Shown here in pieces: positions 24,345 through 62,945 of a stretch of DNA of 64,000 bases. Position 1 is the first letter of the stretch; each line of letters opens with the position of its first letter. Made by a program: the position numbers and the translations under genes. This DNA comes from a virus, in the IMG/VR virus record IMGVR_UViG_3300027917_000018, positions 62,001 to 126,000 of that record; one strand, given 5' to 3'. The notes under the pieces are model-generated. The model saw only the letters and a list, made by a program, of their open reading frames with translations. It was not told the DNA's origin and made no database searches.

Positions 24345-24620
24345 CTACTTCTTCCTCATCACCTTGCCGGGCGGCTTCGCAATGACGTTGAGCATCTTTT
24401 TGGATCGTGCCTCGGCCACTGGCATTTCCACATCTTCCTGCCGGTAGCTGACCTTGCCCGGTGACTTGGCCACCGGAGCCGTGCCGCTGCTGGACGCGCC
24501 CTTTTGCTTGGCCTTCTTCATGGCCTTGGGCACGCCCATCTTAGCTTCGGGCATTTCGATCTTCTCGCCGCTCAAGAGTCGTTGCGCTACGCGCTCGGCT
24601 GTTTCGCGAATGTCGTTCAT
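24345..24620 (-). CDS. Small basic protein with the recurring LA-x-x-LL helix
   Basis: 91 residues. Residues 5-18 (RETAERVAQRLLSGEK) match the short helix shared by several proteins of the window. The rest is Lys/Pro-rich and disordered (AMKKAKQKGASSSG, KPPGKVMRKK), as in internal head or DNA-binding peptides. The start follows GTAGTTAGGAACGT. Together these suggest a late, virion-associated gene. Confidence 0.6.
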   Translation of the reverse strand: MNDIRETAERVAQRLLSGEKIEMPEAKMGVPKAMKKAKQKGASSSGTAPVAKSPGKVSYRQEDVEMPVAEARSKKMLNVIAKPPGKVMRKK

Positions 24621-24627
24621 ACGTTCC

Positions 24628-24657
24628 TAACTACGGCGTCCAGGTTAACGCGTTCTA
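24628..24657. promoter_or_regulatory. Divergent junction: GTAGTTA (minus) facing GTTCTA (plus)
   Basis: In a 44-base gap, GTAGTTA on the minus strand (complement at 24628-24634) lies seven bases before the gene starting at 24620. GTTCTA (24652-24657) lies seven bases before the ATG at 24665. This mirrors 6036-6073: the structural-type gene has GTAGTTA, the regulator/replication-type gene has GTTCTA. Confidence 0.5.
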
Positions 24658-24664
24658 TCTGGCC

Positions 24665-25765
24665 ATGCAGCAAATTCTCATTCACCGAAAACAGCGGGAC
24701 CCATTCAATCGGATTCCGAAAACGATCGCCGAAAATCCAGAGCTGACCCTGGCGCAAAAAGGGCTCTTCACCTACCTCCTGGGCAAACCGGAGGGCTGGC
24801 GCATCATCACCAACGACGTGGTCAAGCAAACCAAGGACACCGAGTACAAAGTCCGCAAGGTCATGAACGAGCTGAGAGCGCTGGGTTACATGGCCCTGGT
24901 TAAGGCACGAGAGGGCAGTCAGATCACGGCCTGGATTTGGCTCATCAGCGACGAGCCTATCTTCGCTACGCTTGAAGAGCTGGAAACCCTGGACCGGCAA
25001 TACGAGCTGGCTAATGTGGAATACTCACGCCTGGAACGGCTTAGGAAGAAAAGAGGCCCCAACGGCTCCGCTTCGAGCCAACTTCCTAAAAATCGAGAAG
25101 TTGTCGATTATGATGAGAATTTTCAACATGGGCCGGATCGCCACCATAGTAAGAAAGAGAGTAAGCAAGAACCAAATAAAGCAAGAACCACCACCACTAC
25201 CGCCGCTGGCGCGGGCGGTCCAGCCGCTGGCGCGGCTGGTGGTGGTAGTAGTGTCGCCCTATCGGGCGGGGAGGAGCAGGCTGCAAGCCCGCAGGCCGCA
25301 GGCGAGGAACCCAGCCGCAGGGGCAGGCCAGGTGGCAAGCCCAAACACAAAGAGCTGACCTTGCAGGAGCAGGAGGCAGGCGTCTTCCTGGCTCATTACA
25401 CCACCAAGCTGGGAAGGATGACCCGGAACTTCCAGATTCGGATTTCCCAGGAAACTGTGATCGAAGCCGGGAAGTTCTTCGAGGCGCATGGGCGGTGGGC
25501 AGGTTTGGACATAGTCCTGGTCTGCGCCCTGGCATGGGCCTGTGCCTACCAGAACCGCGCTCCGGGAAAGGGTAATTTCGACCGGTACTTCTACTCCAGG
25601 CGGTATGCCACCCGTCCAGAGAAGCTGTTCCAGGAAATGAACGGCCAAACCGTCATTGAACACATGGCCCACGAGGTCCGCTACGACTTCACCCAAACGT
25701 ACGATCAAGCCTGGGCCACCCTGGAGAGCTTGGTGGCCGAGGTTTCCAAGGGCTGGGGTAGTTAA
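24665..25765 (+). CDS. Replication-initiator-like winged-helix protein
   Basis: 366 residues. Residues 15-80 form a helix-turn-helix of the type found in phage/plasmid replication initiators and DnaD-like proteins: PKTIAENPELTLAQKGLFTYL, then NDVVKQTKDTEYKVRKVMNEL, then LGYM. A long Ala/Gly/Thr-rich linker (about 165-215) leads to a helical C-terminal domain (about 235-366) rich in Trp and Tyr. It starts after GTTCTA and leads a plus-strand group, and its GGT AGT TAA end forms the GTAGTTA of the next gene. Confidence 0.7.
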   Translation: MQQILIHRKQRDPFNRIPKTIAENPELTLAQKGLFTYLLGKPEGWRIITNDVVKQTKDTEYKVRKVMNELRALGYMALVKAREGSQITAWIWLISDEPIFATLEELETLDRQYELANVEYSRLERLRKKRGPNGSASSQLPKNREVVDYDENFQHGPDRHHSKKESKQEPNKARTTTTTAAGAGGPAAGAAGGGSSVALSGGEEQAASPQAAGEEPSRRGRPGGKPKHKELTLQEQEAGVFLAHYTTKLGRMTRNFQIRISQETVIEAGKFFEAHGRWAGLDIVLVCALAWACAYQNRAPGKGNFDRYFYSRRYATRPEKLFQEMNGQTVIEHMAHEVRYDFTQTYDQAWATLESLVAEVSKGWGS

Positions 25766-25769
25766 GGCA

Positions 25770-26633
25770 ATGGCAGACAAACCAAATCGCCCCGTGCGCG
25801 ACTGGCTCAAGAAGGTGGAGACCACCGGGCCGCTCACCACGCGATTACGGGCCGCCAAAATCAAGGACCCGACGCTGTACGTGGGCGCGGCAATCCGTGA
25901 AAACGGCAGGTACCCGCACTTCGGGGCTTTTGAGCCACAGGTAGAAGTCACCAGTGAGACCCAGGAGTCGGGCGACGAGTTCTATGACGCGATTCACAGC
26001 ACCCTGGTTGAGTGGCTGGCCGAAGAGGTTCAAAGCTTAAACCGCGAGTTTTTCAAAATTCTGGAGACCGAGTACGACTACCAGGTGAGCGATGAGGGCG
26101 TGGCCGACAGCCTGGACGCAAACGAAATGCACTTTGATGCTGATGGCCAGCCCGCCGACCTGAGCCACTACTACCACATCGATCAGTTGCCCAAACCGGT
26201 GGCGGTCAAGGTCATCGGCCTGTACTCGCGGATGTTTGGTAAAACGGAAGAGGAGGTTGCCGAGGCGCTCCTGGCCAACAAGATCAAGTTCGACAAGCGG
26301 GGCAACCGCGTGGACACCGACGAGTTCAAGCGCGTCAGCGAGCTGCCGCCCGAAGTTCGCAAAAAGGTCCTCGAAAAGCATCGTTACTGGAACGTTGAGG
26401 ACAACGACTGGGCGCACTGGCTTCAGGAAAACTTCGCCGAGGAACGCTTGCAGGGCTGGCGGAACCCACAGTTTGAGTGGGAACTTTACGGATCGGTCCA
26501 CGCTGCCCGAATTCTGACGGACAACGTCGACCTGGACACTTTCATTCCCGAGGCGGAAAAGCACCGGCAGAGCCAGTCAAGAAAGCAAACGAGCGAGGCC
26601 CGGCAGGTGGCACAAAGGGTTCTCGTAACATGA
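25770..26633 (+). CDS. Unknown protein, 287 residues, with C-terminal tag-like helix
   Basis: Start at 25770, after GTAGTTAAGGCA; a longer upstream reading only shadows the previous gene. It is acidic and mostly helical, with Trp-rich stretches near 220-255. The last residues (SEARQVAQRVLVT) resemble the LA-x-x-VL helix found in other proteins of this window. No domain recognised. ATGA overlap with the next gene. Confidence 0.65.
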   Translation: MADKPNRPVRDWLKKVETTGPLTTRLRAAKIKDPTLYVGAAIRENGRYPHFGAFEPQVEVTSETQESGDEFYDAIHSTLVEWLAEEVQSLNREFFKILETEYDYQVSDEGVADSLDANEMHFDADGQPADLSHYYHIDQLPKPVAVKVIGLYSRMFGKTEEEVAEALLANKIKFDKRGNRVDTDEFKRVSELPPEVRKKVLEKHRYWNVEDNDWAHWLQENFAEERLQGWRNPQFEWELYGSVHAARILTDNVDLDTFIPEAEKHRQSQSRKQTSEARQVAQRVLVT

Positions 26634-27073
26634 AACTCGACGCGGAAACCCATGACTACATCGCCCAACGAGCGCAGTGGTACTTCGACGTTTACCCGGC
26701 GGGCTACCCATACTCGGTTGAGAATTTCGTTCTCACCGGGGACGGCGTGGACGATCTTGATTTCGCCATCACGCGGATCGAGGCGTACGGAACCATCCGC
26801 CCGCCTCGCATTGTCTGCGAGGTCGGCACGAGCGGCACGGTCATGCTCGGGAACGCCTTTCCCAAATATCTTCCCTGCGACGTTGAAGATGTTAGAGCAA
26901 TTCGTGAAGCGTTTATCGCATGGTATGGGACGGTCAACAGGCCGGACATCTACGCGACCGGGACCGGTGCGTCTATGGAGACACCCTGCCAGCCACAAGC
27001 TGTTTGCGTGTGGTGTACCACCGGGTCCCTCACCGGGACTTACGCGGGTACGGTCTTTCCGGGACAATGCTGA
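26630..27073 (+). CDS. Unknown protein, 147 residues
   Basis: ATG at 26630 within ATGA. Mixed alpha/beta, with VENFVLTGDGVDDLDFAI and a Cys-rich end (ETPCQPQAVCVWC). The last 30 residues contain CxxC but no full zinc site. No family recognised. Coupled to the next gene by TGATG. Confidence 0.6.
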   Translation: MKLDAETHDYIAQRAQWYFDVYPAGYPYSVENFVLTGDGVDDLDFAITRIEAYGTIRPPRIVCEVGTSGTVMLGNAFPKYLPCDVEDVRAIREAFIAWYGTVNRPDIYATGTGASMETPCQPQAVCVWCTTGSLTGTYAGTVFPGQC

Positions 27074-29103
27074 TGAAGAAGGTTACGGAAGCGGACGGCG
27101 GAGCTGAGCGCGCCCGGCGCGACTTCAAAGCCATGATTCAGGCCCAGCGCGACGCTGAGGCCGCCAAGGCGCGTGCCCGCGAGGCGGAACGGGCCACGGC
27201 CCGCCACCAAAAGGTCTTGGATAACGGGCCGCCGCTGCGGGACGGCGAGGAGGATAACCCGAAGATGATGTGGTTTCGGGAGAACCTGGAATGGGAGCCG
27301 CACCCGGAACTGTGGTGCCCGCCGAGTACTGGCTACAGCGACGGCAGCGGCAGCTTCGTCGAGCGCTCCAACGCCAAGTGGTTCACCGAAAACATGGGTG
27401 AAATCTTCAGCCAGGTCGGCGGCGGCTACGGCACGGTATGGACCGGCATTACCGATGAGGACCGGTGGGTCATCACCGACGAGCAGTTTGAGCAGCTCAA
27501 GGATGTGGTCGAGGGCCTGGAGGGCTACCCCATCATCGACGAGCAGCTCTACAGCGAAATGGAGTACGACGCCTACAACGAGTACTACCAGGGCGAAGGG
27601 CGCAAGGACCTGCGCCAGGCGCTCCTGCAAAGGTTCTCCGGCGACCCCGAGGCGCAGATGGCCGTGCGCTTCAGCTCGGTCGACGCGTTCGACCACCTGG
27701 CCTGGAATAGCGACATCAGCCAGGCTTTTGAGACAGAAACGGGCGGCGGCGTTTACTTTCGGGCCAACGCGGCTGCCGAAGGCTTCAACCGGGACGAGGT
27801 CGTGGACCTGGTCAGCGAGGAGGAGGCCCGCACGGCAATGGCCAGCGCGTGGGCCGAGCGTATTCAGCCTGGGTGGATCGACACGCTGGCTGAGGTTCGA
27901 CGCGACGATGAACGGCTGGTCAACACGGTCGCGGAGCTGGAGCCCTCGTCAGGCTTCAATTTGTTTACGAAATTGATGGTTAAGGTTGGAGCCGACTGGG
28001 AATGGGATCAGCGGGAGGATGAGGCCAGGGACGCGTTCGACATCGATAGTGATTCTATGAAGGAAATGGCGCAGGCACTGGAGCCGGGCATGCTGAGCGG
28101 TCTTCGCCCCGAGGACCCGCGCCAGCTGCGCTTGGCCATCGAGCAGATTCTCAATGGCGAGCCGACCTTCACGCTCTTCGAGGGGTTTAAGGAGAAGAAG
28201 CAGCTTTTCGTCAGCCAAGGCGCGAGCCCCGAGGAAGTCGACGCACTCCTTACCCAGTTCAAGCGCCTGAAGCAACGCGGCCTGCTCCAGGGTGAGGAGG
28301 CCGACATCGACCGGTACACTGACTTGGATTCGCTGCGGCAGGCGGTCGAAGCCGCGTCGCAGAAACAGAGCAAAACGGGGCGCAAGCGGGAGGTTCGGCA
28401 CAAAGAGGCTATCGTGCTCCGGGATGACGAGGAGATGCAGATTGTCGTTCCGAAAACCTGGGCCGCCGCGAAAGCCTACGGCAAGGGGACCAAGTGGTGC
28501 ATCAGCATGAAGGAGTACCCGAGCCACTGGACCGAGTACCACAAGAAGCTCGCCAAGCATTACATGATCTGGAACAAGCGGCTGCCCGCGCCCACGATGG
28601 GCACCCACGGCGAGCCGATCGGCGGCAGCCCGCTCTACAAGATTGCCGTTACGATTTACCCGGACGGCCATTCATCGATCTACAATGCGCAGGACCAGGC
28701 CATCACCGAGCAGGACCTGAAACGAGCCACCGGTTTCAGCCTTTCGGATTTCAAGTCTTGGGAGGAGCACGAGCTTGCGGGCCGCGACCTGTTCCGCCTG
28801 ATGGGCGCGAAGAACGTGCCGTTCCGCGAGCGTGTGGAGCGGATCGGGGCCGAGGGCTGGGCCGAGATGGGCAAGAATGTGGCCATGCGCGAACTGTGGT
28901 CCAGTGACCAGGCCGAGGACCTGAAGGGCAAAAGCAAAGAGGAGGTCGACGCGGCCTGGGACGAGTTCTGGCAGAAGGCCCGGCAGGAGCTGCTGGACTA
29001 CCCGGACGACGAGGACTACGAAAAGAGCCTGAAGTTCTACGTCGAGTCGCTGCGGCTGCCGCCCGGCAAACAGCTGGCACTGCTGGAGGACGCCGATGAA
29101 TAG
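27073..29103 (+). CDS. Large unknown protein with K-G-T-K-W-C motif
   Basis: 676 residues from the ATG at 27073 (27067 is an alternative two codons earlier). A charged N-terminal coiled coil (about 15-45) is followed by an acidic helical region. At about 450-545 is a conserved-looking block: QIVVPKTWAAAKAYGKGTKWC, then WTEYHKKLAKHYMIWNK, then YKIAVTIYPDGHSSIY. I recall this W-C block in other phage proteins without a known function. The C-terminus is helical and acidic. It overlaps the 2H phosphoesterase gene by eight bases. Confidence 0.7.
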   Translation: MKKVTEADGGAERARRDFKAMIQAQRDAEAAKARAREAERATARHQKVLDNGPPLRDGEEDNPKMMWFRENLEWEPHPELWCPPSTGYSDGSGSFVERSNAKWFTENMGEIFSQVGGGYGTVWTGITDEDRWVITDEQFEQLKDVVEGLEGYPIIDEQLYSEMEYDAYNEYYQGEGRKDLRQALLQRFSGDPEAQMAVRFSSVDAFDHLAWNSDISQAFETETGGGVYFRANAAAEGFNRDEVVDLVSEEEARTAMASAWAERIQPGWIDTLAEVRRDDERLVNTVAELEPSSGFNLFTKLMVKVGADWEWDQREDEARDAFDIDSDSMKEMAQALEPGMLSGLRPEDPRQLRLAIEQILNGEPTFTLFEGFKEKKQLFVSQGASPEEVDALLTQFKRLKQRGLLQGEEADIDRYTDLDSLRQAVEAASQKQSKTGRKREVRHKEAIVLRDDEEMQIVVPKTWAAAKAYGKGTKWCISMKEYPSHWTEYHKKLAKHYMIWNKRLPAPTMGTHGEPIGGSPLYKIAVTIYPDGHSSIYNAQDQAITEQDLKRATGFSLSDFKSWEEHELAGRDLFRLMGAKNVPFRERVERIGAEGWAEMGKNVAMRELWSSDQAEDLKGKSKEEVDAAWDEFWQKARQELLDYPDDEDYEKSLKFYVESLRLPPGKQLALLEDADE

Positions 29104-29803
29104 CCAGGCCCTCCGTCTCGCCCGATGCCTGCTGGAGCAGAAGTTCAGCTACAGCACAACGCAGATCAATCTGCCGTCGCCGCTCGACGATTTCGTCGTG
29201 AAGTGGGGCCGGATGCACGTGCAGGACCAGGACCTCTACTACTTTGACGATGGCGGCGGTGGCCGTGAAACCGAACCTCATATCACGGTGCTTTACGGGC
29301 TGCTGGAACCCGAGCCCAGCGATGCGCTCCGGCAAATCGTCCGCCGGACTTCGCCCTTCTGGATTCGGTTGGGGCCGACGAGCCTCTTCGAGAACGAGGA
29401 CTTTGACGTGCTCAAGTTTTCCGTGGTGAGCCCCGACTTGGAGGCGCTCAGCGGTGCGATCCGCCAGGCGTGCCCAAACGAGAACAAGTACCCGAAGTAC
29501 ATCCCGCACGCCACAATAGCCTACGTGAAAAAGGGCCGCGCCAAGCACTTGAACGGGCTGTACCCGTTCGAGGGTTATCCGCCCGTTCCCAGCGAGTTCG
29601 AGGCTAACACGTTGATTTTCAGCGCTGCCGGGGATGACGACGACCCGAAGCGCCGAACAGTGAGGCTTCCATTCAACCGGACGAGGAACGAAAGTCTCAA
29701 TCAGGACAGCCCATTCCAGGGTTTATGGTTCCCGGCAGACGCGTCCGAGCTGGCCAGCAAGATTCTCGGACTCAAGAAACAAGACCCAAAGCAGGTTGTT
29801 TAG
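29096..29803 (+). CDS. 2H phosphoesterase (2'-5' RNA ligase/LigT-like)
   Basis: 235 residues. The two catalytic motifs are clear: PHITVLYGL with His62-x-Thr and PHATIAYV with His138-x-Thr, about 75 residues apart as the family requires. Such enzymes hydrolyse cyclic phosphates, including 2'-5' oligoadenylates and cyclic dinucleotides, so an anti-defence or RNA-repair role is possible. The N-terminus (SQALRLARCLLEQ) and C-terminus (ASELASKILGLKK) both carry the tag-like helix. No later LigT domain is present, so the enzyme is compact. Confidence 0.8.
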   Translation: MNSQALRLARCLLEQKFSYSTTQINLPSPLDDFVVKWGRMHVQDQDLYYFDDGGGGRETEPHITVLYGLLEPEPSDALRQIVRRTSPFWIRLGPTSLFENEDFDVLKFSVVSPDLEALSGAIRQACPNENKYPKYIPHATIAYVKKGRAKHLNGLYPFEGYPPVPSEFEANTLIFSAAGDDDDPKRRTVRLPFNRTRNESLNQDSPFQGLWFPADASELASKILGLKKQDPKQVV

Positions 29804-29821
29804 CACTCATCCTGCGAAGGG

Positions 29822-29828
29822 GTAGTTA
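29822..29828 (+). promoter_or_regulatory. GTAGTTA motif upstream of the 1762-residue tail gene
   Basis: GTAGTTAGAGCAGGC stands in the 33-base gap before the ATG at 29837; here it is intergenic and not part of any stop codon, so its conservation is not due to protein coding. Confidence 0.5.
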
Positions 29829-29836
29829 GAGCAGGC

Positions 29837-32800
29837 ATGAGCTTAATCAACCTGACCGAAGATTTCCTCTACGACCGGCTGCCCGAGGGGCTGATCCAGC
29901 TGGACGAGAGGGGTCTGATCCAGGCTGTCCTCGGTGGGTTTCAGGACCGCATCGAGGATTTGCGCTTCTACGCCAAGCGCTTCCAAAGCTTCTACACGCC
30001 GATCCCCGAGGCGCTTTATCGCCCAAACGTCGTGCTGGTCACTTATCGCACCGATCAGGGGCGCGACATCACGCGGAGCATTGACCTGGAGACCGAAACG
30101 CCGCAGGACGGGACGAGCGACCTGCTGGTATGGGCCGCCACGCAGCTGAATGTCGATACGGACCGAGTCTCCAACGCCCGCTATGGCGTGGACCCGCTGC
30201 GAGACATCGAACCCAGCCTGCTCGATTACCTGGCCACCAACGTCGGGGCCGTCCTCTACGCCAGCGCGATCCTCAAGGAGAGCCCGTCGGTTACGACCAG
30301 CACGGGCACACTGACCGCCGCCAATTACGCCTACAGTAAGCTCTTGGAGACGTACTTCCCTCGGCTCAAGTTCAAGGGCACGGCCAAGAGCTTCGAGGCG
30401 CTTGGCAAACTGCTGGGATGGGATGACGTGCGGGTCACGCCGCTTTGGGGCCGGGTGAGCCCACGGCTGCCAAACGATCCAGGCAGCGACGTGAACGACC
30501 CGGACTTCTCGGAGATGCCGGAATTCTGGCCGCAGCAAACGATCGGGCCTTTTTACGACCCGCTCGACCAGGCCGATGGGCCTTTTTACGACTGGACCGG
30601 GACCGCGTCGGCGGGCACTGCGTCAACGAAGTTTTACAGCCAGGTCGTAAACGGATTTCAGCCGTACGTGGAGGTTCTCGTGACCGGGACCGCCTCCGGC
30701 ACGGTCATCCAGCACCCGTCCAGCGGCAGTTACGTGCTGGCCGACGGAGCGCCGCACCAAAAGGCGATGGTCGACGCCGGGGACATTCAGTTCCGGGCGC
30801 TGGGCGAGGGCGAAAGCTACAACGGCGTCACGGTCACCGTCTTCGACGTGGTGGACGCGGACTTGCGGGGCGTCAACGTGGATGGACGCCTTTCCTCGAT
30901 CAAGTACCGGACCAGCTTCTACAACCTGGGTCTGACCATCACATCGGAGAAGGCGCAAGCGGTTTTCGGAACCCTGACGGCCAAGGCCAACAAGGACCTG
31001 GCGGTCGCGCCCCACGAGTACCAGAGCTTTGTCGGCAACCTCACGGCGGTCAGCCCCTACCGGCCATTCACCAGCGGCACCGTGGCCCTGGACACGCTGA
31101 CCACGGACTGGCTGACGCCGTTTACCGGGACGATTTCAACCTACACCGAGCGTCGGGAAGCCGGGTTGGGCGATCGGCAGGAGAATTGGGACGACCTGTC
31201 CCGCGCCGGAGCCCAGGCCACGCAGGCGCTGGAGGAAGTGCGGGCCGCCACCCGGCGTCCTCGCGTCAGCTCCTTCGGCTATCTGCAAAAGGACCAGGTG
31301 GGCTACGCGCCCTATCCGGCGCAGGACTGCCTGTTTACACTTTACGGTTCGATCGTCGCGGGGACGTATCACGGCACGTTCAGCACTTACCCGCTGCCGC
31401 CCTATTACGCCGACGTAGGCTATGTGAGCGGTGGCTTTGTGACCGTTTTCGACGCGGGGACCAATCCGGCCTTTCCAGGCATCGTCACCTATCAAAATTG
31501 CGCGGACGGCGGGACGATCGCGGGTACGATCGGCTACACCGGCACAGGCACGAACTCCTATTTGTTTACGGCGACGGGCACGTGGCCTCAATGGGGTACT
31601 GTTTGTGCGCTGTTCACGGTGACCGACACTGAAGTTGTCCGGCCAGAGCCCTTCAGTTGGTCGACCGGCACGACGGTCCTGGCTGCCTTGGCGGATTACG
31701 GCCTGGCGGGCACGAACCACGATGAGGTCGCCGCGCTCATCAACAGCTGGAGCCCGCAGGCGGTCGTGGCGATGGGCGACAACAACTACCCGGACGGACA
31801 GGCGGCCACGATTGCGGCCAATAACGTCGGGTACGAGAGCTACATTGTCAGCGACCGTTTCTTCCCGGCGATCGGCAACCACGATTACTGCTGCTCCTCG
31901 ACCGGGACCGACCTCACGCCGCACCTGACCTATTTCTTTGACGGCACCGCTCCAGGCGAAGGTGGTCGCTACTACAGCCGCCGGATCGGCAACGTCGAAA
32001 TCTTCTGCCTCAACGCGGGCTGGAACAGCAGCCAGGCAGCGGCAGCCGTCGGCGACCCTTATTACGTGACCACGCAGGAGCCCAGCGGGAACAGCCTGAC
32101 CAGCACCCAGGCGCTCTGGCTCAAGCAGGCCCTCCAGGAATCGACGGCGACGTGGAAAATCGTTTACAGCCATTACCCGCCCTACGCGTCGGAGACCACA
32201 ACGAACAACTATGCGCCCGGTTACCCAAGGCTGCGCTGGCCGTTCAAGGCGTGGGGTGCTGATCTGTACCTGGCCGGGCACGTTCACGCCTACGAGCGGC
32301 TGGAGGTCGATGGCCTGACCTACATTACGTGCGGCGTGGGCGGGGCGGGAAATCGCGTCTTCGACGGTTACGTGTCTCCAGGGAGCGTGGTCCGCTATGC
32401 GCCCTTGGGCGCAACGACCGAGCATGGGGCGCTCCGCATCTTCGCGACCGGCCAAGGGCTCCAGATTGATTTCATTCTCGACACCGGCCAGGTCATCGAC
32501 CGCGTGTTCTTGGACGCCACCAAGAAGTATCTGGCGCGGCCCGAGGACGAGATTGACGACGATGAGGTCTACGGCACCGCCGACATGTACCCGTGGCGGC
32601 GCGACATCGTGGGCAACGGCGAGCTGGTCGAGCAGGACTACTACACGGCTGGCACCAACAACCTGGCCGTCTCGATCCTGGAGAAGACCATGACCGTGCC
32701 GGACCAGACCGGTGCGGAATACGACGTTTACGCGATTAAAGGCCAGGAGCCTTACCGTCTGGTGGCGGCGCTTCGCGCCACGAGTCCGGCCTCGGATTAC

Positions 32801-35125
32801 GTGCCCGGCCAGCCCAGCGTGGCCTTCAGCGGCACGTTCCGGGATCAGGCTGGCCTCGGGGCCGACGACCTCAATCCGTACGTCAACCCACACGACCCGG
32901 ACAATTTCCGAACCCAATTCAGCCGGATTGACTACGACACGGTTTTCAATCCCGGCTGGGCGATTTACAACGCGGGCCTGGTTCAGGGCGTTTTGGTCGC
33001 CGACCCGGACAAGTTCGGCGGGGCCTACCACACCGAGAACCTGGTGGGCTGGCTGCCGTTTAACGAGCACCCGCTTGATGACCTCACTGTCACGGATCAC
33101 GCCCGCACGCTGGCTGTGAGCCAGTTTCTGAACGCAGCACCCGAGGACCGCGTTTGGGACGACACCTTTGGGTGGGTCCTCTACATGCGGCCCGGTGCCA
33201 CACTTCAGGTTTTCGCCGACCGGGAGATGACGACCGAGGGGCTGATGACCTTCTGGATCAACGTGGACTCGACCACAACCGGCCCCACACAGGAAATCAT
33301 CTTTGAGTTCGGCCCGATGCGCTGGACGTTGGACGCCGGGGCCAACCAGATCACGTCCTGGGGCAATGTTCCTGGGGTTGGCTGGACGGTTAGCTCCAAC
33401 TACCCTGTGACGCCCGGCCAATGGCATCTGTTCGGTATGGGATTCACCACGACCGCCGACGTGTTCCTCGATGGCGACCTGTCATCGTTCAACTATTCGG
33501 CGCTCGGCGGAGGCGGCCTGGTGGCCACAACCGACGACACGGTTCTGTCGCTGTCCGGCAAGTCGCGGCGCTACAAGATTCACGACCTGCGCATTTGGAC
33601 CGAGGTCAAGACCTACGGTCAGATGGAGCTGGTCCACAACTACCAGCCGAGGCCGACGCAAACCCTTTACAGCCTGGGCCACATTCTGGCCGCCAACGAT
33701 GGCGACCGGTTTGGGCTGAAAGTGCTGCCCCGTGGCTGGCTGGTTCCAGCACAGCTTCCGGCCTGGGTTCGCACGCCCAAGTACGCCCGCGTGGAGCGCT
33801 ACGACGGCGGCGGGGAATACCAGGGCGAGGCGCGTTTTAAGGAGGTCGGGCTCGGCGGCGGACAGATGCCTCCCTACAATTGGCAATTGGGCACGCAGGG
33901 GCCGACTTTGACCGGCGCTGGGACTGTGGTGGTAAGCACGCAGATCGGCGCGTACCCCGGCACGAACGCCTACTGGGGCAAAGATTCGATTCCCGGCACC
34001 TATATCGAGTTGAGCGGTTCGACGGCGAGCGGGTCGATCGCCGTGGTTCAGACGTGGGGAAGCGGTGGACTGCCGTGGCCGCACCACATGGAGGCGACCA
34101 ATCCCTGCTTTGACGCGGTGTGGGTGCCGGACCAAACTGGCCACGTTTACAAAGTCACGCTGGAGGCTGGCTCGGATTACACCGCCAGGTTTGTGGCGAC
34201 TCCGGGCACCTACGGTAACCAGGAGGAGACCGGCGCGCACGTGGGTTTGAGTGGCACGACGGCGGCGAACTACCTGGTCGTGACCGGCTACGGATCGGTT
34301 GTTCAGCAGCCCTACGCGGGGACACTTACCACGCCTCCGCTTTACATGTACCTCCATGACGTGCTGCTGGAGGATGTGGGCGGCTCCACGACCTACAACC
34401 GGTGGACTGATCCGAACGTGGATGGGCAGTCCATTGGCTACCCGACCATCGATCAAGCTGGTGAAATCTCGCTGACCAACAGCACCAGCCTGCGGGCCGG
34501 AACCTACCGGCTCAAGGTGACCAGCGGCAACTTGGGCAAGGTTGACGAGGCGTTCGACGGATTCAGGGTGCTCATTACCGTTGGTGACGCCACCATCGAC
34601 CGGACACTGCTGGCAGGCTACGGCGGCAACAACTTCACCGGCACGGATGAATTTGAGTTCAGCCTGGACCACGACATCGACGGTGAGTGGTTGCTCACTT
34701 TCGACTGGACCAATCCCTATGAGGACGTGACACGGGGCACGATCCGCCAACTGGTCATTTACGGCTACCAGCTCCGGCGGCTGGAGACCAACATTTACAA
34801 GGTTGACGTTCAGGTCGCCGGGACGGAGCCCGACGTGGAACGCATGGCTATCTTTGGTGAGACGGGCGACGGCGGCGTGACGCCCGGCGGCTGGATGGCC
34901 CAGTACAACGACTACGGCACGGTCGCGACTTGGCGGCACGAGGGCACGGTTTACCCCTCCAACGACACGCTGACCAGCCGGTACCCGTTGGCGAATTTGC
35001 TCACCGGGATGACCGGGGACAAGCGGGAGGACGTTCTATTCACTGTCTACGGCACCCGTAGCTGGTTTGTCCTGCCGACGGCCTCGACAACCACCTTGAG
35101 CGGGACCTCGACCATTGTGACATGA
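29837..35125 (+). CDS. Giant tail protein with embedded metallophosphatase and LamG-like domains
   Basis: 1762 residues. The N-terminus (about 1-230) resembles a baseplate or tail-tip protein. At about 620-880 lies a complete purple-acid-phosphatase/calcineurin domain: GDNNYPDG near 647, IGNHDYC near 679, YSHYPPY near 777 and GHVHAYER near 814, with the metal ligands in place. A concanavalin/LamG-like region follows near 1115-1275, with further beta modules rich in Gly-Thr to the end. The role is probably host-surface contact with a phosphate-releasing activity. ATGA overlap with the next virion gene. Confidence 0.8.
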   Translation: MSLINLTEDFLYDRLPEGLIQLDERGLIQAVLGGFQDRIEDLRFYAKRFQSFYTPIPEALYRPNVVLVTYRTDQGRDITRSIDLETETPQDGTSDLLVWAATQLNVDTDRVSNARYGVDPLRDIEPSLLDYLATNVGAVLYASAILKESPSVTTSTGTLTAANYAYSKLLETYFPRLKFKGTAKSFEALGKLLGWDDVRVTPLWGRVSPRLPNDPGSDVNDPDFSEMPEFWPQQTIGPFYDPLDQADGPFYDWTGTASAGTASTKFYSQVVNGFQPYVEVLVTGTASGTVIQHPSSGSYVLADGAPHQKAMVDAGDIQFRALGEGESYNGVTVTVFDVVDADLRGVNVDGRLSSIKYRTSFYNLGLTITSEKAQAVFGTLTAKANKDLAVAPHEYQSFVGNLTAVSPYRPFTSGTVALDTLTTDWLTPFTGTISTYTERREAGLGDRQENWDDLSRAGAQATQALEEVRAATRRPRVSSFGYLQKDQVGYAPYPAQDCLFTLYGSIVAGTYHGTFSTYPLPPYYADVGYVSGGFVTVFDAGTNPAFPGIVTYQNCADGGTIAGTIGYTGTGTNSYLFTATGTWPQWGTVCALFTVTDTEVVRPEPFSWSTGTTVLAALADYGLAGTNHDEVAALINSWSPQAVVAMGDNNYPDGQAATIAANNVGYESYIVSDRFFPAIGNHDYCCSSTGTDLTPHLTYFFDGTAPGEGGRYYSRRIGNVEIFCLNAGWNSSQAAAAVGDPYYVTTQEPSGNSLTSTQALWLKQALQESTATWKIVYSHYPPYASETTTNNYAPGYPRLRWPFKAWGADLYLAGHVHAYERLEVDGLTYITCGVGGAGNRVFDGYVSPGSVVRYAPLGATTEHGALRIFATGQGLQIDFILDTGQVIDRVFLDATKKYLARPEDEIDDDEVYGTADMYPWRRDIVGNGELVEQDYYTAGTNNLAVSILEKTMTVPDQTGAEYDVYAIKGQEPYRLVAALRATSPASDYVPGQPSVAFSGTFRDQAGLGADDLNPYVNPHDPDNFRTQFSRIDYDTVFNPGWAIYNAGLVQGVLVADPDKFGGAYHTENLVGWLPFNEHPLDDLTVTDHARTLAVSQFLNAAPEDRVWDDTFGWVLYMRPGATLQVFADREMTTEGLMTFWINVDSTTTGPTQEIIFEFGPMRWTLDAGANQITSWGNVPGVGWTVSSNYPVTPGQWHLFGMGFTTTADVFLDGDLSSFNYSALGGGGLVATTDDTVLSLSGKSRRYKIHDLRIWTEVKTYGQMELVHNYQPRPTQTLYSLGHILAANDGDRFGLKVLPRGWLVPAQLPAWVRTPKYARVERYDGGGEYQGEARFKEVGLGGGQMPPYNWQLGTQGPTLTGAGTVVVSTQIGAYPGTNAYWGKDSIPGTYIELSGSTASGSIAVVQTWGSGGLPWPHHMEATNPCFDAVWVPDQTGHVYKVTLEAGSDYTARFVATPGTYGNQEETGAHVGLSGTTAANYLVVTGYGSVVQQPYAGTLTTPPLYMYLHDVLLEDVGGSTTYNRWTDPNVDGQSIGYPTIDQAGEISLTNSTSLRAGTYRLKVTSGNLGKVDEAFDGFRVLITVGDATIDRTLLAGYGGNNFTGTDEFEFSLDHDIDGEWLLTFDWTNPYEDVTRGTIRQLVIYGYQLRRLETNIYKVDVQVAGTEPDVERMAIFGETGDGGVTPGGWMAQYNDYGTVATWRHEGTVYPSNDTLTSRYPLANLLTGMTGDKREDVLFTVYGTRSWFVLPTASTTTLSGTSTIVT

Positions 35126-55718: not shown

Positions 55719-55722
55719 GCTT

Positions 55723-56895: not shown

Positions 56896-56902
56896 AGGCA
56901 AG

Positions 56903-57934
56903 ATGCCAAAGTATGCAGTCGTGCCAAGCCACCTGATGGGCGGCCCGGAGAATCCCGGCATGCGCTGGGATGCCGCCTATTTGATGATCCTGGCCGACCT
57001 GCTCAATCCCCAGCTGTCGATCGAGGAGGCTACCGATCTTTTGGAGAAGCACCTGGAGGAGAAGAAAATCCGGGTAGGCGACCTGTGGCGGCTTTCCGGG
57101 ACCCCATCCGCCGTCAAGGAGCTGGGCAAGAAGTTTGGTCTCGAAGTTACGGATCGCGTTCGCCCGCGATTCACGGCGGTCTTCATGGAGCTGCTCCGGC
57201 GGCACAAGGACCGGCTCCGGCACCAGGCCAAGAGCATCGAGCAGCAACTGGACGACCTTGACCAGCGTTTCCAGGCTGAAGCCCTCGCCGCCAGCGTGCT
57301 CGAAGGCTACAGGGAGACGGATGATTACAGCGCCGAGTACGCCAAGTTCAACGATCTATCCAAATGGCCAATTTCTGCAAAAAGAGGCGCTTTCTTGGAC
57401 TATGGACTGGCCAAGGAATGGGCTCGGTATTTGGCAAACGGAACCTACACACTTGATTGGTGGGGCACGCGGCTGGAGGACATTCCTTGGGCTGCCGAAA
57501 GCATAGCCAGGTTTTTTGGGTCCAAATGGGAACGGAAAGAAGACAGGGAAGCCGTTCAAACTCTCAATAATGCAGCGGCTCAAGTCATTGACGTTGAGAC
57601 GATCCACGAGCCACTAGCGCTCCCGCCTCCGCGCACGACCGGCGAATCCTTGGCCGCCAGCGTGCTCGAAGGCGTCGTATTGGAGGGTGAGGGCATCGAG
57701 GCCCGCCTCAAGGCTGCCGCCAAGAAGATCAAGCATTCCGGGGATTACGGGATGCTTTACTACCATCCCGAGAAGCACGAGGTCCACTGGACGGCGGCGG
57801 ATTCGGACGGTGAGCCGGAGCACACGGGCGGCCCCGAAATCATCAAGCTGCTGAAGCTGGATGGCATCAAGCACGTCGAGGTCGGTGACGAGTGGTCCCC
57901 GGACGAGGACGAAGGCTGGAAACGCCTGATATGA
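56903..57934 (+). CDS. Acidic protein with two LAASVLEG repeats, 343 residues
   Basis: Helical N-terminal third (EATDLLEKHLEEKKIRVGDL, then FMELLRRHKDRLRHQAK). The sequence LAASVLEG occurs twice, at about 128 (AEALAASVLEGYRE) and about 250 (GESLAASVLEGVVL), dividing the protein into parts. The C-terminal part is beta-like and acidic. The repeats match the helix shared by other genes here and may mark processing or targeting sites. No enzyme motif. Confidence 0.65.
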   Translation: MPKYAVVPSHLMGGPENPGMRWDAAYLMILADLLNPQLSIEEATDLLEKHLEEKKIRVGDLWRLSGTPSAVKELGKKFGLEVTDRVRPRFTAVFMELLRRHKDRLRHQAKSIEQQLDDLDQRFQAEALAASVLEGYRETDDYSAEYAKFNDLSKWPISAKRGAFLDYGLAKEWARYLANGTYTLDWWGTRLEDIPWAAESIARFFGSKWERKEDREAVQTLNNAAAQVIDVETIHEPLALPPPRTTGESLAASVLEGVVLEGEGIEARLKAAAKKIKHSGDYGMLYYHPEKHEVHWTAADSDGEPEHTGGPEIIKLLKLDGIKHVEVGDEWSPDEDEGWKRLI

Positions 57935-59124
57935 CGCCCAATCAGCAAGATCGCGCTCTGAAGAATGCCAGCCGGTGGCTGCACAAGTACCGGCGGGCCG
58001 CCCGGCAGACCCTTGGCCCGGAGCGCGCCAAGTATCAGCAAGCCGCCCGGAATTATCGTGGATGGATTTCAACGCTGCGCCGGGACATTGCGAACCGGCC
58101 CACAGAAGAAGGAATTGAGATGAGCAAACTGCACGAAGCTTACGGCTGGGTGGTCAGCTATGACGCCCCAGGTGGCACGAAATGGTACTGGGGCCAGAAA
58201 GGCTGGGTTCAGGACCGGCATCAGGCCAAAGCCTCGATGAAGAAGGCCGATATGATCAGCCTGGCGCAAAGCTTGGTGCGCAACGCCCCGGCCTTGCAGG
58301 ACCGCATCGGCGTTCAGGTGAACGCACCGAAGTTGGAGGGCATTCCTGCAAACACGGGCGAAGATGAAGGGTTCCGTCGGATGAAGCGCCTGGCCGCCAG
58401 ACCGGACAGCGAGCTTGGACCAAGCGCACGCCGCGCCAAAGCGCGGTTCCTGGCGAACAACAAGAAGGCCGATGCCATGTTCAAATGGGCTAAGGGCGTC
58501 AAGGAGGACGTGCCTTTTGCCCAGCCTGCCGGTGGGCCGGACGACCCGTGGCGGCAAAGCATAGTGAAGGTGCCTTACGACCAGTTCGATTTCAGCGGCA
58601 AGCGCGGCAAAGAAGACGTGGAGGACGAGGACGACGAGGAAAAAGAGACCGAGAAGCCCAAGGCCAAAAGCCGTTTTGACCTCAAGTTCGATGAGTCCGA
58701 GACGCTCGCCTCCAGGGTCCTGGAGACTGGCGAACGCAGCAAGCGCGACATCTACAATGAGCTGGAGCGCTTGTGGGCGGAGCGCGACGAGATGCAGCGG
58801 CTCCAGCGGTTCATGGCCAAGTGGGCGCTCATCAAGGACGAGCTGGGCATCAGCGACGCGGACATCCAGGCCCTGGACATCGAAACCAAGGGCGACGGCA
58901 GCAAATGGGCGGTGGGCATCTACCTCAAGGAGCCGCGCTATGACCTGAAGATGCAGCGGGCCGACGCCCGCCGTAAACGTTTGGATCGTGAGTGGGCCGA
59001 GAAGAATCCTCATTTGCACCGCAGTCAGAAGCCGTCGTGGTCGCCGGGTCACCGGCATTCCAGCTCCAGCTACATCGCTTTGGAGCAGCCGCTTTATCTG
59101 CCCAAAGCCTACTTCAAGAAATGA
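57931..59124 (+). CDS. Large acidic-basic protein with SETLASRVLE helix, 397 residues
   Basis: The N-terminal 70 residues are basic (WLHKYRRAARQTLGPERAKY), then a region with WYWGQKGWVQDRHQAKAS, a highly acidic stretch (KEDVEDEDDEEKETEKPK at about 230-247) and SETLASRVLETGER near 264. The C-terminal part is helical and ends in a Ser/Tyr-rich tail. No enzyme motif recognised. Its layout suits a structural or internal virion protein; the ATGA-coupled neighbours carry the same helix. Confidence 0.65.
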   Translation: MTPNQQDRALKNASRWLHKYRRAARQTLGPERAKYQQAARNYRGWISTLRRDIANRPTEEGIEMSKLHEAYGWVVSYDAPGGTKWYWGQKGWVQDRHQAKASMKKADMISLAQSLVRNAPALQDRIGVQVNAPKLEGIPANTGEDEGFRRMKRLAARPDSELGPSARRAKARFLANNKKADAMFKWAKGVKEDVPFAQPAGGPDDPWRQSIVKVPYDQFDFSGKRGKEDVEDEDDEEKETEKPKAKSRFDLKFDESETLASRVLETGERSKRDIYNELERLWAERDEMQRLQRFMAKWALIKDELGISDADIQALDIETKGDGSKWAVGIYLKEPRYDLKMQRADARRKRLDREWAEKNPHLHRSQKPSWSPGHRHSSSSYIALEQPLYLPKAYFKK

Positions 59125-61262
59125 AGGTTGCCGGGCACGAGGTTGAGACCGTCACCCATCCGCATCACGGCGGCTGGATGGCGATAGCCTACCTCGAAGG
59201 CGGCAAGCAAGTGGCCGGAGCGCCGTGCGACACCAAAGAGCTGGCCGAGAAAGACCTTCACGACAAGCTCTACGACATGCTGCGGCCCAAGTTCGATCCG
59301 AAGAAAACCTACGAGCAATCCGAGGAATACCAGCAGCGCGTGATTGCGAGAGCAGAAACGTTTACGCCTTTCAAGCGAGCGATGTGGGACCTCGATGTGG
59401 CACTGACTGACCGCGCCTTCGAGGCCGCCAGCCAGTACCACCACTACCCGGATACGCCGGATAAGTGGTTTGCCCAGGGCGGCGAATGGTACCTGAGCGA
59501 TGGAGGTTACAGCCGCGTCGTTTACAGCGAGGAGACCGGGAGGCTGTTCCTGACCAGCAACAGCCGCGACCAGGTCAAGGCGCGGTGGGACGAGGCGCTG
59601 CCCCAGCGGGCCAAGGCCGAGGCCATCATTAACGACTACATGCGCCAGGAGCTGGGCGAGGCCAAGACCAAGTTTGCCGCCGTGGTGCTGCTGAAGGACA
59701 AGGACGACCCCAAGGCTCTGATCATCAAGCGGGATGACGAGCCCGAGGCGGGCAAGTGGGCCTGTCCTGGTGGCCACTGCGATCCGGGCGAGGACGACGA
59801 GGCGGCAGCCCACCGGGAGCTGAAGGAGGAGACGCGCTTGTCCGCCGAGAGCCTGGTTCCGCTGGGCAAGACCGCCGATGGCACGGCCATGTTCTGCGGC
59901 TGGGCCAAGACCGAGGACGCCAAAGGCACAGCCACCGACGACGCCGAGGGCCTCAAGTGGGTCTCGGTCGACAACCTGCCGGAGCTGGCATTTGGCAACG
60001 AAAAGCATATCCGCCAGGCCGTTCGCAAGCTCAAGGCCAAGGAGGAGGCACTCCAGCTCGCCCGCGAGGTTCTTAATGAGGTCACGCCTCGGGAGCTTTT
60101 AAGTCGGCACCCCGGAGAGGCAGAGCCGTACGTTTTCTTTCAGCCGTCGGGCATAGAATCGTTCAAGCTACCCCTCCAAAAAGTGGCTTCGACTTACGGT
60201 TGGGATTACACACAGGCTGAGCTTAGCCAGGAACAGCTAAACTGGCTCGACCTCCACGGTGAGTCTGTTTTTATAGCCTTGAACGACTACGGAGCAATCA
60301 ATAGCGACATTCTGGACGCAAACGACGAAACTGCGGGTACTTTCAGCGTCGTTGGTAACCTCGATAGCGCTACAGAAGTCAACAGTCTCGAACGTCTCAC
60401 GCCGCCGTGGCGCACGGAAGGCAAGATCGGCAGTCCGCGCCAGAACCGTTGGAACCCGATGGGGCTTCACCGCAATCACCGGGGCCAGCTCGTGGACAAG
60501 TACGGGCGCGTCATGGACGTGGACTGGGATGAGTTTGAGCGCAAGCGCCTGAAGCCCGGCGAGGAATTGAAGAGCCCGAAGGTGCTCAATCCGCTTCACC
60601 AGGCGGCCAAGGCCACCGGCCAGGTCGAGGCGCGGGAGCCAGAAAAACCGGGAAAGCCGATCAGTCCCCGCGAGCTGCTCAGGAAGTACCCGCGTGAACA
60701 GCCCTATCTGCTCAAGGGCGAGATTGAAGACACCCAGCGCCTGGTCAAGGTCCTGGACCGGTTCGACAACGAGGAGCACATCTACGATGACGGCTACGGG
60801 CCGCTGTGGGTCATGCGGGAAAGCCTGGGCATCACCGGCATTGCCCGAGCCCGTTCGTGGGAGGATGCCTATAGCATCGCCGAGGACGAGTTCTTCCATG
60901 AGGCGGATGAAACGGTCGAAGAGCTTCAGAAGGAGTACGGCTTTCGGCGCGAGCACGTCAAGATCGTGCGCGATCCGAAAACCGGCGAGGAGCGAGATGT
61001 TCAGCAGGGCGACTATCCGTTTGCGGAAACCGGCGTCGAGTTCGTGCGTTGGGAGACTAGGGAAACCCCTGACCCGGACGGCTGGATTGACAACGAGCTG
61101 TTCCAGGAGGCGTACGGCTTCAGGCCAAACGGCCCCAATGCCCGCGACACGCACCAGCACGGTATTTACCAAAAGGACCTCAACGGCGAGGTCTTGGACG
61201 AGCTGACGCCAGCCCTGGCCGAAGAGCTTCAGTTGAGAATCTACGTGGAGGACGAAGAATGA
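59121..61262 (+). CDS. Large Nudix hydrolase-containing protein, 713 residues
   Basis: A complete Nudix box, GGHCDPGEDDEAAAHRELKEET, spans about 217-238 (G-x5-E-x7-R-E-U-x-E-E) inside a domain at about 183-312. Nudix enzymes hydrolyse nucleoside diphosphates linked to other groups, such as NAD, caps or ADP-ribose. Downstream are EEALQLAREVLNEVTPRELLSRHP near 312 and SPRELLRKYPRE near 515, two related helix-plus-PRELL units, then further acidic domains. The enzyme is embedded in a much larger protein that may be virion-associated. N-terminal function unknown. Confidence 0.75.
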   Translation: MKVAGHEVETVTHPHHGGWMAIAYLEGGKQVAGAPCDTKELAEKDLHDKLYDMLRPKFDPKKTYEQSEEYQQRVIARAETFTPFKRAMWDLDVALTDRAFEAASQYHHYPDTPDKWFAQGGEWYLSDGGYSRVVYSEETGRLFLTSNSRDQVKARWDEALPQRAKAEAIINDYMRQELGEAKTKFAAVVLLKDKDDPKALIIKRDDEPEAGKWACPGGHCDPGEDDEAAAHRELKEETRLSAESLVPLGKTADGTAMFCGWAKTEDAKGTATDDAEGLKWVSVDNLPELAFGNEKHIRQAVRKLKAKEEALQLAREVLNEVTPRELLSRHPGEAEPYVFFQPSGIESFKLPLQKVASTYGWDYTQAELSQEQLNWLDLHGESVFIALNDYGAINSDILDANDETAGTFSVVGNLDSATEVNSLERLTPPWRTEGKIGSPRQNRWNPMGLHRNHRGQLVDKYGRVMDVDWDEFERKRLKPGEELKSPKVLNPLHQAAKATGQVEAREPEKPGKPISPRELLRKYPREQPYLLKGEIEDTQRLVKVLDRFDNEEHIYDDGYGPLWVMRESLGITGIARARSWEDAYSIAEDEFFHEADETVEELQKEYGFRREHVKIVRDPKTGEERDVQQGDYPFAETGVEFVRWETRETPDPDGWIDNELFQEAYGFRPNGPNARDTHQHGIYQKDLNGEVLDELTPALAEELQLRIYVEDEE

Positions 61263-61705
61263 GCGACGTTGTCAGGCGCATGTTAGGTGAGAGCGTGTGG
61301 GACCCGCCCAAGGGCATGGTTCAGTGTCCGGCTTGCGAGGCAATGGGCTACGTCGATGAGGAAGGCAATCCCCACGGTCCCGACACGCCCGGCGCGGAGC
61401 CTTGCTACTTGTGCCACGGCAAGCGCTTTGTGAAACCCGAGGTTGCCAAGGACCATGAGGGCAGGACCAAGGCCAAGATGCGGGAGTACGGCATGGAGTC
61501 TCGGGATGAAGTGCGAGCCGTTATCGAGGACACGCGGCCCGTGAAGTTTTACCGGTGCCCGCACTGCAACGAGGAGATTTTCGAGAAGCACGACTACGTT
61601 GACGAGTCCGGCGTGACCCGCCACCGGGGCTGTGGCGGAGCGTTTAAGTGGCCACCGCCGAGCCCGGAACAAAAGGCGTGGCTGGACAAACTACTGAGCA
61701 GGTAA
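61259..61705 (+). CDS. Zinc-finger protein with tag-like N-terminus, 148 residues
   Basis: MSDVVRRMLGESV at the N-terminus resembles the shared helix. CPACEAMGYV and CYLCHGKRF (CxxCxxxGxx) make a DnaJ-type zinc pair, and RCPHCNEEIF with HRGCGG completes a second site. Zinc-ribbon proteins of this kind bind DNA or RNA or act as chaperone adaptors. ATGA overlap with the Nudix gene. Confidence 0.7.
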   Translation: MSDVVRRMLGESVWDPPKGMVQCPACEAMGYVDEEGNPHGPDTPGAEPCYLCHGKRFVKPEVAKDHEGRTKAKMREYGMESRDEVRAVIEDTRPVKFYRCPHCNEEIFEKHDYVDESGVTRHRGCGGAFKWPPPSPEQKAWLDKLLSR

Positions 61706-61708
61706 GCT

Positions 61709-62278
61709 ATGCCAATTGTCAAAAACTTCACCCGGCAGGCCAGCAGTGCTGGCGGCGACCTCGTGCCCGTGCTCAAGAGCCTGGGCGGCGACCAGTTTGA
61801 TGAGCGCACGATGGAGCTGCGCAATTTCTTTGGCATCAAACTGACGACCACGGACGTTAATCGCAGCGGCGCGTCTACTCCGGTGGACGACCAGTTCACG
61901 GTGGCGCTCACGCAAGGTGTTCAGGTCATGCTGGAATATCGAATTGCCTGGACGCTTCCGGCGTCTCCGACTGCTACAGGCATTGAGTTTGGCTGGAATT
62001 TTCCGCTCTCTCCAGCCTTCACGGACGGCTACCAAATCAACTGGTATGAGTCGATCGCCGCAGGTGCCAGCACTATTGTAGGTCTTGTTTCCAATGGCGA
62101 GGGAGCGCCTGTGCCCATCTTTGCCAACACCACTGCCATTCGGAACAACGGCAGGTGGCACGTCGAGGGCTTCTTTGTTGTGACACCCACGTCGAGCGGC
62201 AACGCCGAATTCTTTTGGGGCAATTGCACGGATGTTACCCGCAGCGCGGGCAGCCACGTGCGCGTCACACCTGTATGA
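61709..62278 (+). CDS. Probable virion appendage protein, 189 residues
   Basis: Beta-rich (YRIAWTLPASPTATGIEFGW, then YQINWYESIAAGASTIVG, WHVEGFFVVTPTSSGN) with a helical start. The layout suits a single jelly-roll head domain or tail-fibre tip, with no enzyme motif. It sits in the run of tag-bearing genes and overlaps the next by four bases. Confidence 0.6.
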   Translation: MPIVKNFTRQASSAGGDLVPVLKSLGGDQFDERTMELRNFFGIKLTTTDVNRSGASTPVDDQFTVALTQGVQVMLEYRIAWTLPASPTATGIEFGWNFPLSPAFTDGYQINWYESIAAGASTIVGLVSNGEGAPVPIFANTTAIRNNGRWHVEGFFVVTPTSSGNAEFFWGNCTDVTRSAGSHVRVTPV

Positions 62279-62610
62279 GTCGAGCCCGCGCCATCTTGGA
62301 AGCGGAGACGCCCAAGAGCGTTATGGCGGAGCTGCCATCGGATGAAATTGAAATCCGTTGTCACCTTCAGGACAATCGGCTTCACAGCGGGCGGGAGGTT
62401 TCCGATCCTGGCAGTCACTTTGACCGCGTGGTTGTTTCGGGCCGCGATTGGCCAAAGGTCGAGCAGCTTGGGCTTTGGCTGGAGCCCGACCCGGACGAGC
62501 GTGGCGTTTACTGGTGCGGCGACCTTTACGTCACCGAGCTGCAAGGTGCGCTTGACGATGCCGGGATCAAGCATGACTGGTGGGAAAGCGATCCCCTGGA
62601 GGACGAATGA
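62275..62610 (+). CDS. Small protein with N-terminal SRARAILEAE tag, 111 residues
   Basis: The first eleven residues, MSRARAILEAE, are identical to those of the next gene, although the rest differs completely; the body here is acidic with WLEPDPDERGVYWCGDLY. An N-terminal sequence kept identical between unrelated proteins looks like a targeting or processing signal. Function of the body unknown. Confidence 0.65.
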   Translation: MSRARAILEAETPKSVMAELPSDEIEIRCHLQDNRLHSGREVSDPGSHFDRVVVSGRDWPKVEQLGLWLEPDPDERGVYWCGDLYVTELQGALDDAGIKHDWWESDPLEDE

Positions 62611-62945
62611 GCCGCGCCCGAGCCATCCTGGAGGCTGAGCCTCGCGACCTGATGCGCCGCGCCGCCCAGCGTGAGAAGGCCGAGGCAGGCAAGTGGCCGG
62701 TTCAACCCGGCGACAAGGGCTTCCTTTTCATTCTCGGCGAGAATCCGAACCTTTCTTTGAACGTCTACGCGCCGACCACCGCCCTGGCCGTCGAACGCTG
62801 CAATCAGGTTCTTAAGGAGCTGTTCCCCGACGGCTTGATGCACCGGAATGACCGCTGGGACACGACCTTTCATTTTGATTGGACGAAATTGGAGGCCAGG
62901 GACTCGGACATCTACGATGAGTGGGCGCTGGATGCTGAGCGGTGA
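62607..62945 (+). CDS. Small protein with N-terminal SRARAILEAE tag, 112 residues
   Basis: Same opening MSRARAILEAE as the preceding gene, then a different body: helical DLMRRAAQREKAEAGKW, a beta stretch (GFLFILGENPNLSLNVYAP) and an acidic C-terminus. No family recognised. ATGA overlap with the preceding gene. Confidence 0.65.
   Translation: MSRARAILEAEPRDLMRRAAQREKAEAGKWPVQPGDKGFLFILGENPNLSLNVYAPTTALAVERCNQVLKELFPDGLMHRNDRWDTTFHFDWTKLEARDSDIYDEWALDAER

Follow-up and report, generated by a model that had tools for sequence, protein, structure and literature searches.

Short peptide tags that recur on otherwise unrelated proteins of a T4-related phage and of seven of its relatives (G001 to G007) are probably capsid-targeting sequences (CTSs) with a built-in prohead-protease site, as judged from sequence comparison. 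The phage, here termed G000, is represented by a virus record of 202,975 bases (IMG/VR IMGVR_UViG_3300027917_000018), of which bases 62001-126000 form the window of 64,000 nucleotides presented here. As in the T4-type CTS, the tags were N-terminal peptides of approximately 7 to 20 residues on unrelated proteins. They ended in the gp21 cut site [LI]xE in 72 of 88 tagged N-termini, compared with 436 of 1729 untagged N-termini. The residue following [LI]xE was Ala, Gly, Ser or Asp in 47/83 cases in tags and in 1321/4313 elsewhere.

The earlier note on this DNA had described a helix, LA-x-x-[VIL]-L-[EG], shared by at least nine proteins of the window, and the peptides that it quoted were all located in the predicted proteins where it had placed them. 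The whole record (261 genes, called with a simple caller of our own; gene starts are uncertain) contained 14 strict matches in 12 proteins. The permutation test that the note had named gave 1.03 ± 1.01 matches in 200 within-protein shuffles (maximum 5), and each of the seven related phages contained 0 to 4. The observation in the note is confirmed, but the feature is not one helix: the tag is in two parts, with variants, and is typified by MSRARAILEAE-SPRDFLKK. The first half, MSRARAILEAE or E-x-LAxxVLEG, forms a short helix that closes with a core resembling a cut site, and the second, often directly downstream, is [ST]P[RK]xx[LI][KR]. Tag profiles were grown against shuffled controls with a threshold of 0.5 expected false matches. 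The LAxxVL helix profile gave 17 matches in 16 G000 proteins (10 within 25 residues of the N-terminus and 3 within 25 of the C-terminus), the RARxILEAE-half profile 13 matches and the SPRxxLK-half profile 26. With the profiles combined, approximately 27 G000 proteins were tagged and the tag recurred genome-wide, a search of the rest of the genome having been proposed in the note. Their cargo was unrelated, and no G000 cargo module matched another G000 protein at E <= 1e-4. Many copies were N-terminal. Others lay between domains of multidomain proteins, at the points where stand-alone families begin; both these module-separating copies and the SPRxxLK half had been overlooked previously. Six copies were present in a 703-residue protein (genome position 134514), three in a 336-residue protein (150058) and two in a 251-residue protein (149306). 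The profile matches g066, g080, g113 and g257, and a ribonucleotide reductase (G004_248), were treated as chance. Copies in the window (window coordinates) were as follows.

24570..24605, minus strand: N-terminal helix ETAERVAQRLLS, residues 6-17 of the product of gene 24345-24620 (profile score 22.9, threshold 13.7)
26592..26627, plus strand: C-terminal helix SEARQVAQRVLV of gene 25770-26633, with no Glu cut site (profile score 22.6)
29102..29143, plus strand: N-terminal tag SQALRLARCLLEQK of the 2H phosphoesterase gene (profile score 26.2)
29747..29770, plus strand: C-terminal helix ELASKILG of the 2H protein (gene 29096), with no cut site
57269..57304, plus strand: internal tag FQAEALAASVLE of gene 56903 (profile score 25.7)
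57635..57670, plus strand: internal tag TTGESLAASVLE of gene 56903 (profile score 22.4)
58690..58725, plus strand: internal tag DESETLASRVLE of gene 57931 (profile score 25.4)
60042..60110, plus strand: internal tag EEALQLAREVLNE-VTPRELLSRH between modules of the Nudix protein (halves 25.3 and 23.1, both above threshold)
60660..60689, plus strand: second internal separator of the Nudix protein, ISPRELLRKY (profile score 20.6)
61262..61291, plus strand: N-terminal tag SDVVRRMLGE (LGE-S), of a form like the G003 lineage tag VEKLLxE
62275..62334, plus strand: N-terminal two-part tag MSRARAILEAE-TPKSVMAEL (profile scores 27.8 and 17.5)
62607..62639, plus strand: N-terminal tag MSRARAILEAE, followed by PRDLMRR (profile score 27.8)

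The cargo of gene 61259 was homologous to G003_204. Genes 62275 and 62607 shared their first 11 residues, as the note had reported, and these were encoded by different codons. Identical tags in general differed in synonymous codons, and the 40 bases upstream were without similarity, so that the tag is not a DNA repeat and recurs at the level of protein. The proposed match to [LI]xE applied to about half of the copies that the note had listed (CLLEQ, VLNE, MLGE, AILEAE) and the rest deviated: SVLEG and RVLETG have V at P3 and are not strict sites, and RVLVT and KILG lack Glu.

Related phages were found via the capsid protein (57 loci), and seven large records were taken; megablast of the window DNA matched no named phage. 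The aligned G000 tags were dropped as a query for scanning viral contigs, being too degenerate and matching almost nothing in the relatives. Tags in the relatives were instead detected by searching each genome for recurring N-terminal peptides. Every related phage had its own tag, nearly always built around [LI]xE. The G001 tag was KHLLEDDEEDFDLKDL (28 profile matches in 15 proteins) and the G002 tag VNRLLEVGPDEVDPRQYVR. The tags of G003, G004 and G005 were LVEKLLxE, KARQLIDE and IVNRLLExD, respectively, and G006 and G007, near-identical in their tagged genes, both used RARQILE. G001 also encoded long proteins with internal separators, including a 1145-residue protein with six profile matches and an N-terminal copy. 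In G000 itself, [LI]xE was weaker in the N-terminal tags (14/21). With internal and C-terminal windows of each proteome as controls, strong pairs were more frequent in N-terminal than in internal windows in G000 to G005 and not clearly so in G006; C-terminal windows contained as many strong pairs as N-terminal ones or more in G004, G006 and G007. A second recurring N-terminal peptide, approximately IxE-x-G-[ST]-K-x-E-F-K-R-x-V-L, was observed in G002 (contig L118, 192.5-198.1 kb); it was unlike the main G002 tag and was carried by some nine small proteins, of which several were rich in cysteine.

A search of the genome for a prohead protease, also proposed in the note, located a T4 gp21-type (S77) protease at genome positions 17334-18998, the true start of which was initially missed by the gene caller. 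It matched PHROG 207 (6.4e-13) and the T4 gp21 structure (PDB 5jbl, 1.8e-9), and its stretches LLEHP and SSRGFG, which contain the HP and SRG motifs, lined up with the active-site regions of the T4 enzyme, in keeping with S77 homology. The adjoining gene encoded a gp23-type capsid protein (PHROG 138, 3.8e-23). A further head gene, the portal gene, lay within the window.

6080..7999, plus strand: portal protein (PHROG 213, 1.3e-8)

The protease continued into a long charged tail ending DESVDMVRRLSASAK, and protease and scaffold thus appear to be fused. In this genome and the relatives, protease and scaffold-like tail seemed to be the product of one gene, approximately 520-650 residues long and conserved at its C-terminus near DPRGLNESVEMVRRLS, whereas T4 has two genes. 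The helix was also carried by a 43-residue protein and by a conserved protein of 379 residues beside the DNA polymerase (genome positions 200331-201603); in the 379-residue protein it was C-terminal (EEALRIAKRLLGG) and resembled the C-terminus of the relatives' protease-scaffold protein (ESIAIARRLSTSG).

Protease N-termini in the relatives included MARQYLAEG, MRQYLIEG, LLLED and QLLYE. The 38 complete ones, read by eye and partly rechecked, contained LxE in 31 cases and LVD in 7, and the C-terminus mostly retained [LIV]xE[SA]. The true start of the capsid protein was approximately 58 residues upstream of the called start, and in the loci read its N-terminal region of approximately 83 residues ended in a conserved [LM]xE, positioned similarly to LTE-65 of T4 gp23. 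T4 gp21 removes a 65-residue propeptide from gp23, and the capsid protein here belongs with gp23-type proteins having a propeptide that ends in [LI]xE, at which cleavage is predicted. Small core proteins encoded just upstream of the protease started IVAKLLGEA, LKKLLGES or IKRILGEA; in T4, gp22, gp24, gp67, gp68 and gp21 contain [LI]xE within ten residues of the start. From the sites at the protease's own termini and in the capsid propeptide, we infer that the protease cuts after [LI]xE.

The Nudix enzyme and 2H phosphoesterase that the note had named among the tagged proteins both matched the corresponding Pfam profiles.

59676..60005, plus strand: Nudix domain, residues 186-295 of the 59121 protein (PF00293, 2.3e-17)
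29264..29536, plus strand: 2H phosphoesterase domain, residues 57-147, with two H-x-T motifs (PF13563, 5.7e-13)

The Nudix domain is preceded by the stretch AIINDYMRQELGEA, and a tagged Nudix homologue was present in a relative (G002_161). From residue 531, the last module of the Nudix protein was 56% identical to a stand-alone protein in an otherwise different contig (L011). The 2H protein was placed in its superfamily by the PF13563 match and two HxT/S motifs, and HITV and HATI were conserved among homologues; the homologue G005_248 carried MTPFGLARSLLEAEY at the same place as SQALRLARCLLEQK. Its nearest solved relatives in a profile search were Acb1 anti-CBASS proteins (PDB 9q2g, 2.4e-4), and Pfam Acb1 was matched in 4/4 2H homologues (best 2.9e-5). 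The 2H protein of the window scored 14.2 bits, below the Pfam Acb1 cut-off of 27, and PADLOC gave no match for the 2H family. Other recognisable tagged cargo comprised a phage lysozyme and a Nudix-thymidylate kinase. The tagged protein with a phage lysozyme domain was encoded in G005 (L137:9515-10867), which suggests a packaged or virion lysozyme.

Cargo families changed both tag and context between phages. The domain that follows the internal tag VVEAETPREFLKK in G000 was a stand-alone protein in G002, behind the G002 tag, and in G006, behind KAAQILEALVED. In G005, a stand-alone tagged protein corresponded to the third module of the 150058 protein, and a stand-alone G000 protein (genome position 175783) was the second module of a G001 protein. 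An HAD-like domain carried three different tags in G000, G001 and G002. One cargo family can thus bear a different tag in each phage and be internal in one and stand-alone in another. PHROG families 1915 and 6246 (141 and 113 residues) started directly after internal tags. Tagged genes were accessory: 3/107 were core (homologous over their full length to genes of four or more of six relatives), compared with 331/1710 untagged genes.

Several further proteins were observed. A 1762-residue protein (window 29837-35125) contained a calcineurin/purple-acid-phosphatase-like stretch (GDNNYPDG, GNHDYCC, YSHYPPY, GHVHAYERL). A 1190-residue multi-tag protein of G001 (L074:12251-15823, minus strand) combined a stretch resembling ADP-ribosyltransferases (YHGTS...ILSEGL...GIYVTTS) with a metallopeptidase-like HELTH motif. 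No family was matched, and the ADP-ribosyltransferase-like stretch (G001_127) had no Pfam or PDB support; if real, it would be an analogue of the head-packaged T4 Alt. Conserved proteins starting KNLLNFLFAES or KFLNYIFGES (G000 178239-179647 and homologues in relatives) were clustered with tagged genes and may be conserved internal head proteins.

These features match the plan of the T4 internal proteins, and docking, gp21-type cutting, packaging, injection and head polyproteins are proposed on that basis. The short amphipathic helix, which the protease-scaffold protein and the small head-core proteins also have at their termini, would dock a tagged protein into the core of the assembling prohead. 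The gp21-type protease would then cut behind the Glu of [LI]-x-E, the next residue being mostly a small one or Asp, and so free the cargo inside the head, and the cargo would enter the next host together with the DNA. Internal copies would be cleavable linkers, and long multi-module proteins would consequently be diced into separate domains inside the head. The cargo enzymes (Nudix, 2H/Acb1-like and others) could act at once against host defence or for takeover. A bolder form of this proposal is offered tentatively: the phages would maintain an open-ended injectable arsenal of tens of host-acting domains, many made as head polyproteins (up to about seven modules, as in the 1145-residue G001 protein), packed by short lineage-specific tags, cut apart by the gp21-type protease in the prohead and delivered as a mixture, and domains would shift between fused and stand-alone forms and take the local tag.

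The interpretation in the earlier note, that these proteins may be packaged in the head and delivered into the host, is supported in part, by the protease, the genome-wide tag and the Nudix and 2H domains, and is qualified by several observations that also weigh against the CTS reading. Some G000 copies deviate from [LI]xE, and the C-terminal helices without Glu (genes 25770 and 29096) do not fit a cut site. The G004 tag was mostly [LV]-I-D, with [LI]xE nearby in just 8/15; in T4 IPIII, Asp at P1 blocks cutting and still allows targeting. The HAD proteins of G003, G005 and G006 and the L011 homologue of the Nudix-protein module were untagged. The G000-tag profile found almost nothing in the relatives, conservation thus being limited to the plan of the tag, and this phage and its relatives are known solely from metagenomes. 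Pooled p-values overstate significance because tags inside one genome are not independent of each other; the return of the same core in each lineage is a stronger point than the pooled counts, with G004 the weakest case.

Four other explanations were weighed. Chance likeness among helical proteins is barely credible: so short a pattern should match about once at random, but the shuffles contradict chance, and the low counts in relatives and the excess of strong pairs in N-terminal over internal windows in G000 to G005 also weigh against it. Recent duplication of a 5' gene end, giving functionless shared N-termini, would suit the adjacent genes 62275 and 62607 with their 11 identical residues. 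It was rejected by the codon and upstream comparison, and with tags also inside proteins and lineage-specific forms in eight genomes it is considered highly improbable. The tag helix could instead serve for docking to some other machine of the phage (replisome, transcription complex, nucleus-like compartment or tail), with LxE incidental. Such docking is favoured by the amphipathic character of the tag helices, by the absence of a strict [LI]xE from several copies and by the position of the tagged genes, in accessory clusters away from the head genes. An LxE-like core is nevertheless what recurs over eight genomes and at the termini of the protease, capsid propeptide and head-core proteins; small residues and Asp are enriched after it, and internal copies sit at module boundaries, leaving this explanation rather unlikely. 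Somewhat less unlikely is that the tags do target the head and the internal copies stay uncut, whole multidomain polyvalent proteins being injected. Precedents exist among multidomain phage proteins for which injection has been predicted, and a few internal copies lack Glu (ISPRELL at 60660), but most keep E-A or E-S directly ahead of the conserved stretch (VVEAETPR, LVEAVSPR and LAEAAETPR in G000; LPESVEDDF and LVESVEDEDD in G001). Head targeting combined with cutting is preferred.

No report of genome-wide lineage-specific tags or of internal copies was found in the open-access literature, which is not proof of novelty. On the best reading, a device known from a few T4 proteins is extended here to whole arsenals, being more numerous and used also as linkers. 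With a tag recognisable in sequence data, the proteins that uncultured giant phages inject could be catalogued without cultivation, giving direct access to enzymes of early counter-defence and takeover. The internal copies suggest a use of the head protease comparable to that of polyprotein proteases in RNA viruses, and a changing tag around a constant cut-site core would be a natural system for studying coevolution of cargo, scaffold and protease.

The closest known system is that of the T4 capsid-targeting sequences on IPI, IPII, IPIII and Alt (Mullaney and Black; review PMC9026906). An N-terminal targeting peptide is all that the T4 internal proteins have in common; its first part directs packaging and its [LI]xE end cutting by gp21. 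The likeness is that of a short N-terminal peptide on otherwise unrelated, non-essential proteins, ending in the site of a gp21-type protease; compared by eye only, the sequences showed no close match, and the resemblance lies in the helix and [LI]xE. T4 cargo is injected with the DNA and counters host defence (Ip1-3, which inhibit GmrSD restriction enzymes; PMC12373910) or acts on host enzymes (Alt), whereas packaging here is predicted. The present tags also differ in having two parts, the second being a conserved SPRxxLK stretch that follows the cut site, in marking 6-27 proteins per genome with a different tag in each lineage, in separating modules as internal copies and in accompanying a protease apparently fused to the scaffold. 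T4 gp67, gp68, gp22 and gp24 are head-core or vertex proteins with [LI]xE in the first 10 residues, like the core proteins upstream of the protease here, and are structural rather than accessory cargo. The Acb1 anti-CBASS nuclease shares the 2H fold with the tagged 2H module, a putative relative by sequence that falls below the curated Pfam cut-off. In the giant phages SPN3US and phiKZ, many proteins packaged in the head are cleaved by a gp21-related prohead protease, some of them at more than one position; in the parts of PMC5694885 and PMC10052503 consulted, cuts are at A-x-E or S-x-E, propeptides often exceed 100 residues, the protease is of the S80 type and no short tag common to dozens of proteins is reported. 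Polyvalent proteins of phages and conjugative elements (PMC5512222) are similarly multidomain accessory proteins with enzymatic modules and are predicted to be injected; their processing is predicted to occur via their own metallopeptidase domains, whereas here it would occur via repeated head-protease sites.

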